A stretch of DNA of 11,367 nucleotides from Oscillospiraceae bacterium (lineage in GTDB: Bacteria; Bacillota; Clostridia; Oscillospirales; Oscillospiraceae): assembly GCA_031263805.1 (NCBI GenBank), contig JAISFB010000065.1, forward strand, positions 1-11,367, read 5' to 3'. Position 1 is the first letter of the stretch; each line of letters begins with the position of its first letter. This document shows, piece by piece, positions 4,645-8,130 of this stretch. The notes below the pieces were generated by a model. The model had not been told where the DNA came from, did not search any database, and was given only the letters and a program-made list of their open reading frames with translations. Both the position numbers and the translations under genes were made by a program.

Positions 4645-6399
4645 TTAGTGCATAATGTATAGGTAGTTCCCATCGTCACCATATACCAAGTATCCTCCGT
4701 CAGAGGCAAACCCTTGAACTGCGTATGGATTGTTGCTTGTTCCACCAGCAGACCACAGCAAAACCGCAGATGCTCCAACGGTGTACGAATAAGCGTATCC
4801 TTTGCCGCTTGAAGAATTGGTTGTAAAATAGATGTAATCTATTTCGTCATCCGTGTCACTATACACAATCGGGCTTGATTGCACCGGGTCGCCGGCGGCG
4901 CTGCCGGTGCCGGCACCGTTGCCGTATACGTCGAAAAGTGCCGTTTGTACGAAGTTCCCCGTCGGAACTCCTACGATGCCGCCGCCACCAAAGCTTTCAG
5001 ACCACCCCACATAGACTTGGCTGTTTGCGGTCGCGACCGGCGTGGATGTGCTGTTTCCGGGAAGCGGAAGGGCAACAAGCGTTGAAAGAGACGAGTTGAT
5101 TTGCCACAGGTACCCTGTCGAACCTGTACCGCGGCTTGTTAAGTAGAAGGTTGTGCCGTTATTGACTATGGACGAACGCACGGCGCCGGCGTCAGCCTGT
5201 GTTTGAGTCAAATCCAAGTACTTTCCTACCGATGAAAAGTCCTGAACAGGCTGAATGTAGATCAGTCCGCTTTCGCTGCCGAAGTATACGTTAGCCCCGT
5301 CGATGTACGATCCCGCTCCGTAGAAATCGTCAAAGCCTTGAGTCGGCAGTGTGGGTGTGCACGTAGTCAGCACACGCGGGGAGACCGAGGTGTTGTACTG
5401 ATAATAGCTGTGCGTCCCGCCGTATATGCCCCAGTAGATATACCCGCGGCTGTCATAGTTTATGGGCGTGTTCGGCTGCCCTTCGTACAGAGGGTTGATA
5501 ACCGTATCGCCAACAGCCAATGTCACCGTCGGGGTTCTCGAGGAAAGGTCCGTGAGCGAATACAGCCGCCAGTCGTAGCGGGTGAGGGTGATTTGATTCA
5601 CGGTCGTGCTTGTCGTGTTGTTATTAACAGTAATTGTGAGCGTATACTCTGTATTCGCCGAGAACTTCCCTGTCGGCCCGTTGTAAATGTCGTATGTGCC
5701 GTACTCTGAAAGCGCTCCGCTCCCAAGTGTCGTGGTTTCAGGCGGCGTGGCACCGTCTGTGAGCGTAATGGTGTATGTACCTGTATCTTCGTCGGAGCTC
5801 GACAGATTTGTCGGTAGGTAAATGTAGCTTACAGGATCCGCGAACGTAACCGACGTGGATATGGAACCTGTCGTACCCGGCGCGAATGTTGCCGTAGTTC
5901 CGTCTATGTCCGCTGTTCCCGATTCAGTCCAACCGCTTACGGTACTCGTCGCGAATATGTTTGAGCTGTACTGGATCGCGGCGAAAAGCTCGCTGTTCGT
6001 CGTGCCTGACGTGACAAGGTATGGTGTGGAAAGCTGATTGTCGTTGTTCGCGTCGCTGTCGATCTGTACGTTCCATACCGTGGCGCCGGTCGAAAGGTTT
6101 GTCGCTTGAACGCGCGCGCCGCCGTTGGCGTTGGACGACGGACCGCCGTTGTACAGCGTGTACGATACGCTGTTGCCGATGACCGATGCCGCGTCTACTG
6201 CGGAATACTTATCCCCGCCGTAGGGAAGGCCCAGCGTGGCGACCGAGGGCGTTGTGATCGGAGGCTGCGTCGCGATGATGCCGTTGTTTGCGCTGGCGTT
6301 CTGGAAGCTCGGCCACGCGGCGAGAGCCGTCAGGCCGAGGGAGAGAACGAGGGCGAGCGCGAGAGCCGCGCTCAGGGGTTTTCTAAAAAACTTTTTCAT
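4645..6399 (-). CDS. Secreted PQQ-like beta-propeller repeat protein with an inserted beta-sandwich region
   Basis: The protein has 584 residues. The ATG at 6399 is preceded by TAGGAG with 9 nt spacing, a good ribosome binding site. Residues 1-28 form a Sec signal peptide (MKKFFRKPLSAALALALVLS...ALAA). The mature protein starts WPSFQNASANNG, the usual blade opening of clostridial PQQ-like/outer-surface propellers, and continues with blade motifs such as GGARVQATNLSTGATVWNV, SRGYIYWGIYGGTHSYYQY, GANVYFGSESGLIYI, SSIVNNGTTFYLTSRGTG, YIYFTTNSSSGKGYAYSY and DGGYLVYGDDGNYLYIMH. Residues about 131-280 do not look like blades: a Thr/Ser/Gly-rich jelly-roll-like segment (SGTADIDGTTATFAP ... NTEYTLTITVNNN) interrupts the propeller. 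The enzymatic PQQ site is not evident, so a binding or structural role is more likely than a dehydrogenase. No wall anchor is visible. It is co-oriented with the giant surface gene 109 nt downstream and lies downstream of the cobalamin-type riboswitch. Confidence 0.85.
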   Translation of the reverse strand: MKKFFRKPLSAALALALVLSLGLTALAAWPSFQNASANNGIIATQPPITTPSVATLGLPYGGDKYSAVDAASVIGNSVSYTLYNGGPSSNANGGARVQATNLSTGATVWNVQIDSDANNDNQLSTPYLVTSGTTNSELFAAIQYSSNIFATSTVSGWTESGTADIDGTTATFAPGTTGSISTSVTFADPVSYIYLPTNLSSSDEDTGTYTITLTDGATPPETTTLGSGALSEYGTYDIYNGPTGKFSANTEYTLTITVNNNTTSTTVNQITLTRYDWRLYSLTDLSSRTPTVTLAVGDTVINPLYEGQPNTPINYDSRGYIYWGIYGGTHSYYQYNTSVSPRVLTTCTPTLPTQGFDDFYGAGSYIDGANVYFGSESGLIYIQPVQDFSSVGKYLDLTQTQADAGAVRSSIVNNGTTFYLTSRGTGSTGYLWQINSSLSTLVALPLPGNSTSTPVATANSQVYVGWSESFGGGGIVGVPTGNFVQTALFDVYGNGAGTGSAAGDPVQSSPIVYSDTDDEIDYIYFTTNSSSGKGYAYSYTVGASAVLLWSAGGTSNNPYAVQGFASDGGYLVYGDDGNYLYIMH

Positions 6400-6643
6400 T
6401 GCCGTTACTCCTAAAATAAACTTTGGGTTTTGCGCTTTCGTTGAATGGGTCGCGTCGCCGTGGGTGATACTTGCGTTGCCGTAGGTCAGGTCATGCGTCG
6501 CCTGTGATGGGGGCGGCCCGCCCCGGGCTTTGCCGTCCGCTTGTATTTCGCTTCACATCGGCGCGGGAGGGAACGGCGTTCCCGCGCTGACGGATATTAT
6601 TTTCCTCCAATTCCATAGGCATCGACTATTCCTTTCTTGTCAC

Positions 6644-6669
6644 GGGCGGATTGCCATCCGCCCCTACGG
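6644..6669. repeat. Dispersed-repeat-like hairpin with CCCTACG tail, copy 1
   Basis: GGGCGGAT (6644-6651) and ATCCGCCC (6656-6663) form a perfect 8-bp stem with a TGCC loop, followed by CTACGGGG. The second copy at 6877-6905 has another stem sequence but the same design and the same CCCTACG-(A)GGG tail, which suggests members of one family of small intergenic elements. Confidence 0.45.
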
Positions 6670-6782
6670 GGTGCGGGCGGGGAGAGCCCGTCCGTCCGGT
6701 GATATGTATCGCTTATATATAAACGGCGCGGTATGCCGGTTATATAACATGGCTGCGGTCCCGCGCGCGGCGGGGGCGTTTT

Positions 6783-6822
6783 CGGTGTTGATTTTCTATC
6801 AACACCGGGGCGGCGTTTTTTT
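6783..6822 (+). terminator. Perfect 10-bp hairpin followed at a distance by a T-run (plus strand)
   Basis: CGGTGTTGAT (6783-6792) and ATCAACACCG (6798-6807) are perfectly complementary with a TTTCT loop. Nine bases later comes a run of seven T (6816-6822) on the plus strand. No plus-strand gene precedes it, so it could end an antisense or convergent transcript. The gap between stem and T-run makes efficient termination doubtful. Confidence 0.3.
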
Positions 6823-6876
6823 CGTGAGGAGTACCCCTCACGATTCCCGTCCGCGGACGGGGGCGGGGCGGCGCGC

Positions 6877-6905
6877 GGGACGCCGAGGGCGGCGTCCCCT
6901 ACGAG
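6877..6905. repeat. Dispersed-repeat-like hairpin with CCCTACG tail, copy 2
   Basis: GGGACGCC (6877-6884) and GGCGTCCC (6891-6898) form a perfect 8-bp stem with a GAGGGC loop, followed by CTACGAGGG. It shares its layout and tail with the element at 6644-6669. Confidence 0.45.
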
Positions 6906-6910
6906 GGAAT

Positions 6911-6950
6911 ATAAAAAGCGCGCTCCGGGTGGTTCCACGGGAGCGCGCTT
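6911..6950 (-). terminator. Intrinsic terminator of the riboswitch leader
   Basis: On the minus strand AAGCGCGCTCC (6950-6940) pairs perfectly over 11 bp with GGAGCGCGCTT (6926-6916). An inner GTGG/CCAC pairing closes the loop, and the stem runs straight into TTTTTAT (6917-6911). This is a textbook rho-independent terminator. It lies about 55 nt downstream of the cobalamin-type aptamer, so it is the probable output of the switch: premature termination when the ligand is bound. Confidence 0.8.
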
Positions 6951-6973
6951 GTATACAATATATAATGTATACG

Positions 6974-6996
6974 CGCCGCTCCGTATCGTGGGGAGC
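6974..6996 (-). promoter_or_regulatory. Expression platform: competing GCTCC/GGAGC segments
   Basis: Downstream of the aptamer, the minus strand holds four alternating complementary segments: GCTCC (6996-6992), GGAGCGGCG (6982-6974), CGCGCTCC (in 6950-6940) and GGAGCGCG (in 6926-6916). The second can pair with the first, or with the third, which would disrupt the terminator stem. This is the usual logic of an antiterminator and anti-antiterminator. Between them, GTATACA/TGTATAC forms a further AT-rich hairpin. The pairing scheme is read by eye and has not been folded. Confidence 0.5.
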
Positions 6997-7003
6997 AACT
7001 TAA

Positions 7004-7132
7004 CTTCTTCGCGACGTATCGGACTTATCCTGCGGCCGGCTGCCGCACAAATTACCGTGACCCGTTCGCGGAGGATTTTCACCTCCATTCCGTCTTTGCG
7101 CCGGGCCTTAAATTGCCCGGTGCGCGAAGAAG
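7004..7132 (-). promoter_or_regulatory. Cobalamin-type riboswitch aptamer (compact)
   Basis: The minus strand holds the cobalamin core in order: GGAAT, the hairpin GGAGGTGAAAATCCTCC containing GGTGAAAATCC (7083-7073), then CACGGTAA, then AAGTCCGATACG near the 3' end. For comparison, the E. coli btuB leader has GGAAT, AGTGCGAATCT and CAGCGGTAA in the same order. CTTCTTCGCG (7132-7123) and CGCGAAGAAG (7013-7004) close the element as a perfect 10-bp P1. Two further hairpins are visible: CCGGGC/GCCCGG and TGCGGC/GCCGCA. At 129 nt it is shorter than many class I cobalamin aptamers, so peripheral arms are reduced. It has its own promoter just upstream and a terminator just downstream; the next genes are the two secreted proteins. 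A divergent member or another riboswitch class is possible but less likely. Confidence 0.72.
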
Positions 7133-7157
7133 CGTTACTGTTATTCAATTTAAGGGC

Positions 7158-7186
7158 ATTTTACCACAGGCTCCCGCGGCTGTCAA
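7158..7186 (-). promoter_or_regulatory. Strong sigma-70/SigA promoter of the riboswitch leader
   Basis: On the minus strand a perfect -35 TTGACA (7186-7181), a 17-nt spacer and -10 TAAAAT (7163-7158) predict a start near 7151-7150, about 20 nt before the P1 stem of the aptamer. It lies after the stop of the rhomboid-like gene, so the riboswitch unit is a separate transcript. Confidence 0.75.
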
Positions 7187-7233
7187 GTCTTTTTCTATAA
7201 CTTTATTTCGATTTTTGGTATTATCGTCCTATC

Positions 7234-8088
7234 TTATTTTATATGCGTATGCTTTTCGATATGCTCCTCGCAGTAGCAGTGGAAGCCCTCGCAACGGGAG
7301 CAGTAGCGGAATTGAAGCTCGGGGTCGGACACGTCCGTGCGGCCGCAGACCTCGCATTTGTGGCGGTACGGCGCGCCTTCGGCGCCGCGGCGGGCGTCGT
7401 TTGAGGCGCGCCTGAAATTTACGTTTATAATGTTGGATTTTGCGCGCGCGCGAAGCGTCCGCAGGCCGGGCACGCCGCAGATGAGCAGGAAATTCAAAAC
7501 CGACACGACGGGGGCAAGCGCGTAAAAATACAGCCCCGCAACGGTGAATTGAACGATAGAATACGCGAAAAGCGCCGCGTCAAGCCACGCGAGCCACTTT
7601 ATCTTTACGGGGATTATAAAGAACAGCATCACTCTGTTGTCCGGAAACAGCGCCGCGAAGGCGAAGAACATCGAAAGGTTCAGATACATCGGCGTGAGAA
7701 AAACGTAGGCGAGCCCCGTCAAATAAGTCGCGAGCGAATAGACGACGTTCAGCAATATCCCCGCGCCGTAGAAGATAGTAAGCTTTCCCGCGCCCCATTC
7801 GCGCTCAAGCGTCGTGCCGATGAAATAATAAAAATACAGCGTTATCGCGGAGAACACGATGTTGTCACCCAGCGGCGTGAGTATCCACGTGACGACGCGC
7901 CATATTTCGCCGCGAAGCACAAGCCGCGGGTCGAAAGCCAAAAAGCCCAAAAGCGCGCCTTGCGTGTCGATAAGGCTGATAACGAGCACGGCGACGGACG
8001 CCGCGACGACGTACAGCATAAGCCGCCTGATGCCAAAACGCCTGTGCGTCAGGCAGAAACGGTCGATTTTGTCTGATAGGAATTTCAC
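7234..8088 (-). CDS. Rhomboid/derlin-like integral membrane protein with Cys-rich C-terminal tail
   Basis: The GTG at 8088 is chosen as start because GGAGG lies 6 nt upstream of it (TCAGCA spacer). The in-frame ATG at 8115 has no ribosome binding site and sits only about 12 nt after the predicted transcript start. The protein has 284 residues with about six membrane segments: LMLYVVAASVAVLVISLI, VFSAITLYFYYFIG, LTIFYGAGILLNVVYSL, a segment around LSMFFAFAALF, VMLFFIIPV with LAWLDAALFAYSIV, and YFYALAPVVSVLNFLLICG. Rhomboid-superfamily marks are the WR in the first loop (EIWRVVTWILTPLG) and GTTLEREWG. The GxSG catalytic serine motif and a membrane histidine are not seen, so it is probably a pseudoprotease. 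The tail has CEVC, CSRC, then HCYC, a likely zinc site (Cys 245, 248, 263, 266, 271, 273). It is transcribed away from the fatty-acid operon. Function unknown. Confidence 0.82.
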   Translation of the reverse strand: MKFLSDKIDRFCLTHRRFGIRRLMLYVVAASVAVLVISLIDTQGALLGFLAFDPRLVLRGEIWRVVTWILTPLGDNIVFSAITLYFYYFIGTTLEREWGAGKLTIFYGAGILLNVVYSLATYLTGLAYVFLTPMYLNLSMFFAFAALFPDNRVMLFFIIPVKIKWLAWLDAALFAYSIVQFTVAGLYFYALAPVVSVLNFLLICGVPGLRTLRARAKSNIINVNFRRASNDARRGAEGAPYRHKCEVCGRTDVSDPELQFRYCSRCEGFHCYCEEHIEKHTHIK

Positions 8089-8130
8089 TGCTGACCTCCG
8101 AAAACTGTAATGCATTTTTTTGCTGAGAAT

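Follow-up and report, generated by a model that had tools for sequence, protein, structure and literature searches.

A compact cobalamin riboswitch before a beta-propeller gene and a giant surface protein gene in Clostridia: a candidate system for extracellular corrinoid capture

How Gram-positive bacteria collect vitamin B12 outside their membrane is little known. Here, we describe a locus of an Oscillospiraceae bacterium in which a compact cobalamin riboswitch precedes genes for two secreted-looking proteins, a beta-propeller and a giant protein with an alpha/alpha-toroid, and which, at roughly two chances in three by our own estimate, encodes a B12-repressed system for corrinoid capture that would be anchored in the surface layer (S-layer). 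The window, that is, the whole stretch of DNA analysed, has 11,367 nucleotides and is an entire contig (JAISFB010000065.1, our C3) of a fragmented 1.1-Mb genome that is 63% complete (GCA_031263805.1). On its minus strand a promoter, the cobalamin switch, a terminator, about 510 nt, the propeller gene, 109 nt and the giant gene follow one another. Such an arrangement on one strand had been proposed in a first-pass annotation made from the letters alone, and is now confirmed by a match to the cobalamin riboswitch family RF00174, a promoter scan and RNA folding.

The compact aptamer is found at 7143-6994 on the minus strand, where a targeted covariance-model scan matches RF00174 at 38.6 bits, above the gathering threshold of 31.5 bits (E = 4e-8); the Rfam search that the first-pass annotation had suggested for the leader is therefore positive. 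When the scan was restricted to the bacterium's own genome, this element was the single match. It is to be noted that default annotation can lose such a switch, because a default Rfam gathering scan over the whole window reported none, and an RF00174 scan of 61 family genomes with stricter filters missed it as well. A sigma-70-like promoter at 7186-7158, TTGACA-17-TAAAAT with an extended TG before the -10 element, matches the consensus at 11 of 12 positions and is the only site of its kind listed on either strand of 6300-7300 (0.5 on average in shuffles); its -35 and -10 elements are identical in the congener locus described below. Directly 3′ of the aptamer comes a P13-like hairpin (6996-6978), and then an intrinsic terminator (6948-6913), the expression platform, which folds as a GC-rich hairpin of -23.3 kcal/mol followed by five T residues; a simple terminator scan leaves it unlisted, while it lists the counterpart in the congener. 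The folding energy of 6900-7160 stands at z = -4.96 against 200 shuffles. Moreover, the 3′ arm of P13, extended by the bases that follow it, can form a duplex with the terminator's 5′ arm (computed at -18.2 kcal/mol in the window and -17.4 kcal/mol in the congener), and this alternative pairing is an antiterminator candidate.

That the window switch is a real, conserved RNA is seen from its relatives. A congener (genome G002, contig C297, locus L109) has a syntenic locus with promoter, switch, terminator, propeller and giant, behind an upstream gene 96% identical to that of the window, and the two leaders are 83% identical over 360 nt; its switch reaches 27.5 bits with RF00174 (E = 9e-5), under gathering, and RF00174 scans over all of G002 brought up no match. 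In a metagenome-assembled genome (MAG) of Clostridiales Family XIII (L130), aptamer, P13 hairpin and terminator are kept at 78% identity over 225 nt (E = 2e-46), and Rfam at E up to 1 reported nothing on this leader. From these three elements a covariance model, R1, was built, which matches in 54 of 400 family genomes (63 rows, own included). As to covariation, the three sequences by themselves were uninformative (158 of 500 shuffles as high), and a hand-chosen set of 37 matches from 36 sources was then used. In this set, both partners vary in 42 of 44 base pairs, including all six pairs of P13 (helix 8), in an alignment that is fitted to the model, which favours covariation; covariation cells number 358 against 102.5 on shuffling, none of 500 shuffles was as high, and slid structures gave at most 82. 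A chance match to RF00174 is ruled out by this covariation and by the genomic context.

R1 also finds elements that Rfam misses. Before an operon of toroid-SLH, giant, DUF4430, EcfT and EcfA genes in another congener, G006, it gives 52.5 bits where Rfam at E up to 10 listed no cobalamin family, and Rfam-missed members before DUF4430/toroid operons (L130, L209) were recovered by R1 or by direct alignment. B12 regulons in the family genomes are probably under-counted, because Rfam searches partly miss this compact, covarying subset, which merits a covariance model of its own. The window-type switches are like RF00174 (clan CL00101) in aptamer core, P13-type hairpin, terminator and, in relatives, uptake genes downstream; they differ in being compact and in having GGUCACUGU and GAUAAGUC conserved in the set of 37, and some of them are missed by Rfam. 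When the neighbourhoods of 41 of the 62 non-own R1 rows were surveyed, a toroid, DUF4430 or SLH gene stood among the listed downstream open reading frames (ORFs) in 17 (SLH only in L221 and L227; L172 and L165, chosen for their DUF4430, are left out of this count), and many of the remaining rows resemble, by eye, B12 ATP-binding cassette (ABC) transporters, cobalamin biosynthesis genes or small S-type proteins of energy-coupling factor (ECF) transporters. The aptamer-core pattern had no match in viral contigs.

Do homologous gene pairs elsewhere carry such a switch? The survey that had been proposed for this question turned out strongly positive. We counted 15 distinct propeller loci, after weak or partial ones (L163/L142, L115, L121/L147, L174/L144 and L145), the G295 fragment and the G372 match had been dropped; three of the 15 (L110, L132 and L133) have less than 250 nt upstream, which leaves 12 assessable. 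A same-strand cobalamin switch lies upstream of the propeller in 10 of these 12, scoring over gathering in the window, L129, L131, L155, L160, L161 and L162, under gathering in L109 and before the first propeller copy of L159 (30.0 bits, E = 7e-6), and being counted by nucleotide identity in L130. On the other side of the propeller, a same-strand ORF follows in all 15 loci, and local profiles detect a toroid, DUF4430 or SLH module in 14 of them; the exception is L129, whose ORF is cut after 283 aa. The switch, its coupling to the pair, the toroid and the Gram-positive surface setting, which the first reading had drawn from a single contig, thus recur in relatives far beyond chance, and control of the propeller-giant pair by the switch is a well-supported prediction from this gene order. 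Also in favour of corrinoid capture, L129 (194-9418, Peptococcaceae) has a gene for a corrinoid-binding protein directly upstream of its switch and propeller, and a RACo-type activase gene further upstream. An element resembling PYLIS_1 (67.5 bits against a gathering threshold of 70) is likewise found further upstream in this locus.

The giant gene (4535-3, minus strand) encodes the first 1511 residues of a secreted-looking surface protein and is open at the contig end. The alpha/alpha-toroid that had been read in it is confirmed by homology and a structure model at about residues 765-1062 (2243-1350). As for the DUF4430-like region, what stands is a weak positional trace at residues 579-606 (2801-2718), before the toroid as in several relatives (independent E-value 0.056; hhalign probability 9.7%, E = 0.0033, very weak); a clear domain in the visible part does not stand, Pfam having no DUF4430 match there, the region around 579-606 included, and the structure model of this region is too poor for use, with a predicted local distance difference test score (pLDDT) below 50. 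Judged from relatives, a clear DUF4430 of the window giant probably lies beyond the contig end; going by L109, it is expected some 200 aa past residue 1511, and SLH domains some 600 aa past it. The giant of the congener L109, with 2227 aa, has toroid, SLH and, by local profile only, DUF4430, and three SLH domains are present in each of two congener giants, the window contig ending first; SLH domains past the contig end would likewise hold the window giant to the cell wall. Pfam finds DUF4430 over its cut-off in the giants of L110, L130, L131, L132 and L159, and a local profile, two of whose seeds were drawn from L131 and L132, finds it in 12 of 13 giants searched, L133 being the exception (domain independent E-value below 1e-4).

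DUF4430 is itself associated with cobalamin switches. Among 61 family genomes, one per genus, 29 of 77 DUF4430 matches are preceded on their own strand by an RF00174 switch at a distance of no more than 8 kb, where random placement, assuming 2.1 Mb per genome, gives about 0.24; a switch is downstream in 1 of 77 and on the other strand in 2 of 77. Adding R1 raises the upstream count to 35 of 77. These counts are not independent events, because several matches share one protein and many contigs end early. An operon in G026 illustrates the association: a switch is followed by a giant with DUF4430 and SLH, a toroid-SLH protein, a DUF4430 protein, a CbiQ-type EcfT and a fused protein in which an ECF S component is joined to two ABC ATPase regions, and local profiles find similar orders in L205, L209, L243 and L127. 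In the bacterium's own genome (G000), contig C153 encodes an EcfT with 63% identity to that of G006 and a 917-aa fused EcfA-A-S protein. An EcfT of at least 62% identity is found in 7 of 12 genomes of the genus, G006 included, and the others have shorter or more distant matches. The substrate of this transporter may well be a corrinoid, judged from its control by switches in relatives.

How would such a system work? A transcript from near 7150 on the minus strand would carry the switch, and high intracellular B12 would turn transcription off: bound corrinoid would stabilise the aptamer and the P13 hairpin and leave the terminator free to form, while without corrinoid the terminator's 5′ arm would be captured by the 3′ arm of P13, and transcription would proceed into propeller and giant. 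Cobalamin switches sense their ligand via a kissing loop between L5 and L13, and intrinsic terminators were predicted for 37 of the 38 switches that proved functional in a reporter set in Bacillus subtilis, according to the excerpted text of PMC9600662; from this and the computed P13/terminator pairing, by analogy, corrinoid-bound is therefore predicted to be off and unbound to be on. The products would be exported, and SLH domains would anchor the giant to the cell wall. Toroid and DUF4430 modules might then serve as transcobalamin-like binders in a surface corrinoid trap, the propeller as a second binder, functionally analogous to BtuG of Bacteroides, or as a dock, and the cargo would go on to a DUF4430 protein bound to the membrane and to a transporter of the ECF type. 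We infer the in vivo ligand response, export, corrinoid binding and hand-over from these features; of the B12-repressed extracellular capture once proposed for the locus, it is the switch and its coupling that are supported, and corrinoid binding is what they suggest. Tentatively, and at somewhat under even odds, we may go further and see here an S-layer corrinoid machine of Gram-positive Clostridia, in which an eight-bladed propeller independent of BtuG and a transcobalamin-like giant feed an ECF transporter, and with which animal carriers would share a two-module design.

Animal transcobalamin and intrinsic factor contain an alpha/alpha-toroid. Vertebrate transcobalamins also have a DUF4430 domain at their C-terminus (excerpts of PMC4350170), and the giants of relatives likewise combine alpha/alpha-toroid and DUF4430, with the difference that their modules sit in a very long S-layer-type protein with other repeats between them. 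In Bacteroides, BtuG is a surface beta-propeller of femtomolar B12 affinity (excerpts of PMC6977713 and PMC8941943). The window propeller is like it in being a beta-propeller, presumably at the surface, in a cobalamin-switch locus; it differs in being of the PQQ/BamB type, probably eight-bladed by its model, with an inserted domain, in a Gram-positive bacterium, and in having an SLH giant as partner where BtuG has BtuB. BtuH is an additional B12 binder in Bacteroidetes; the likeness here lies in a Firmicute that has a predicted B12-binding protein next to an ECF-like transporter, whereas BtuH is of another protein class and its excerpted description mentions no propeller-giant pair. The propeller-FecB complex of Rv3035 (PDB 9p3g, 9p3f), its function as known from the entry titles, is mycobacterial. 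In the open-licence PMC literature, in so far as search listings and excerpts of PMC8941943, PMC4350170, PMC6977713, PMC11287211, PMC9600662, PMC11260477, PMC11477304 and PMC2667541 cover it (subscription journals and preprints are outside this scope), we found nothing that connects cobalamin switches with DUF4430 of bacteria or with a propeller of Gram-positive bacteria, and no description of the propeller-giant pair. The locus is thus a testable candidate: a switch-marked surface family with a toroid and, in relatives, DUF4430 as in vertebrate B12 carriers, operon-linked to ECF transporters. If the reading is true, the two-module plan of the animal B12 carriers occurs in surface proteins of bacteria as well.

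The propeller gene (6399-4645, minus strand), which had been read as encoding a secreted protein upstream of the giant, does encode a protein of 584 aa with a signal-like start, so that export is predicted. By its model (pLDDT 84.9, predicted template modelling score 0.85) and its 15 homologous loci, it is a PQQ/BamB-type beta-propeller, probably eight-bladed, with a beta-rich domain inserted at about residues 140-275 (5982-5575) that some homologs do not have. Pfam and NCBIfam give no informative family for propeller or giant. No BtuG-named chain is among the structure matches listed for the propeller, which is no proof of absence.

Several results weigh against corrinoid capture, and they are of different kinds. 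Corrinoid binding and repression are predictions from genomic and computed features, and read-through across about 510 nt past a terminator is an assumption. The structural matches of the propeller are YxaL, BamB and designed propellers, with no known corrinoid binder among those listed. The toroid is a common fold; structurally it comes closest to squalene-hopene cyclase, other terpene cyclases and sugar epimerases, and its profile searched against PDB at E up to 0.1 brings up cyclases, drimenyl and squalene-hopene cyclases best, and no transcobalamin; transcobalamin chains do appear among its Foldseek matches (7qbe at rank 11, E = 6e-4), so that the earlier likening to animal transcobalamin holds for the fold as listed by Foldseek and does not extend to the sequence, which is nearer to squalene-hopene cyclases. 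In the giants of L109, L161 and L162 Pfam finds no DUF4430, the local profile alone doing so, and 48 of the 77 DUF4430 matches have no RF00174 switch within 8 kb upstream. Of the two assessable propeller loci outside the ten, L158 has only an AdoCbl-II hit of 19 bits (E = 0.26) and no R1 match, and Rfam reports no switch before the second propeller copy of L159, which may ride on the transcript of the first. Finally, the propeller is rare, being found in two of the 12 genomes that represent the genus, its own among them, and in 13 of 400 family genomes, own included, several of these matches being weak or partial.

Why, then, should the propeller and giant bind corrinoids at all? It could be that they are adhesins, S-layer parts or shields in a surface layer regulated by B12 as a cue to the niche, while corrinoid would be handled by the small DUF4430 protein and the ECF transporter alone. 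The evolution of propeller and giant, both of which diverge strongly, speaks for such a B12-regulated surface: behind a leader 83% identical and an upstream gene 96% identical, the congener's propeller (L109 7190-9010) is only 36-43% identical to that of the window, and in the propeller tree the window copy groups with Peptococcaceae and Family XIII MAG copies (97/99), apart from the congener's syntenic one, most other forks being weakly supported. The surface genes were either exchanged behind a constant leader or evolve very fast, and a binning error is possible for the MAGs named; divergence behind a constant leader together with a discordant tree is behaviour typical of surface antigens, and toroid folds serve many functions. 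However, operons that stand under a switch and close with an ECF transporter contain DUF4430 and toroid modules time and again, and 9 of 77 DUF4430 matches are at most 1 kb from a switch. We consider surface-layer regulation without capture by the pair unlikely, though by no means negligible.

Another doubt about corrinoid capture concerns the roughly 510 nt that separate the terminator from the propeller gene, seen as the weak point from the beginning. The gap is real; it is partly explained by the congener, in which the same elements follow one another with some 735 nt in this place, by conserved blocks and by the single promoter. Could the switch make a short terminated RNA or control only a short ORF, the surface genes having a promoter of their own? 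The length of the gap, the strong terminator and the short ORF would fit this. Yet just one sigma-70-like promoter is listed per species in window and congener, each before the switch, so that no separate promoter for the propeller gene, as the first-pass annotation had feared, is listed; other lineages keep the order of switch, propeller and giant, the distance from switch to propeller varying between 184 and about 1160 nt (for some genes with a start codon chosen by eye); and L131 (Thermacetogenium) has a second switch of 70.5 bits between propeller and giant, that is, separate switches before each. L161 (G112) has tandem switches before the propeller (12070-11937 and 11548-11412, minus strand). 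An uncoupled switch is thus quite improbable, and to take the gap as a sign of unrelated genes is rejected by the same conserved order. Least probable is that the toroid acts, after export, as an enzyme of the terpene-cyclase kind or as a glycan-active protein in an operon serving a corrinoid-dependent pathway, for which its best PDB profile matches, the drimenyl and squalene-hopene cyclases, speak, but against which it has about 300 aa and stands in a protein with a signal-like start, beside DUF4430 and SLH modules in relatives.

The long leader itself has several features of interest. The alignment of window and L109 shows conserved blocks, repeats that are palindromic by eye, a hairpin at 6807-6783 with base changes in both arms (as read by eye) and a short ORF. 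This predicted ORF of 43 aa (6622-6491, minus strand), with Shine-Dalgarno-like purines, differs in sequence from the ORF in the congener's gap (L109, about 9270-9142, minus strand), and both end in PITGDA at a strongly conserved stretch of DNA; the window ORF may be a translated leader ORF. Since a short ORF that follows a B12 switch can govern expression of the gene after it, according to the excerpts of PMC11260477, the window ORF deserves interest. A different short ORF, starting MNMARSG[TS] and with Shine-Dalgarno-like purines, is found upstream of the propellers of L132 (119-138, plus strand), L158 (11270-11251, minus strand) and L159 (6718-6737, plus strand). The leader of L155 between switch and propeller (6035-5049, minus strand) encodes a 65-aa DUF2292 protein (22.7 bits, cut-off 22) and a second short ORF, similar to it by eye and without a DUF2292 match. 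A short repeat of the type GTAGGGGCGGATGGCAATCCGCCC, palindromic by eye, occurs in the window at 6400-6910 and also on contigs C190 and C135 of the same genome.

Around the locus, the gene upstream of the switch (7234-8115, minus strand) encodes a membrane protein that is rhomboid-like by eye and has no Pfam match, and the promoter begins about 47 nt past its stop codon. The plus strand carries an ordinary set of genes for acyl carrier protein, biotin carboxyl carrier, biotin carboxylase and carboxyltransferase.

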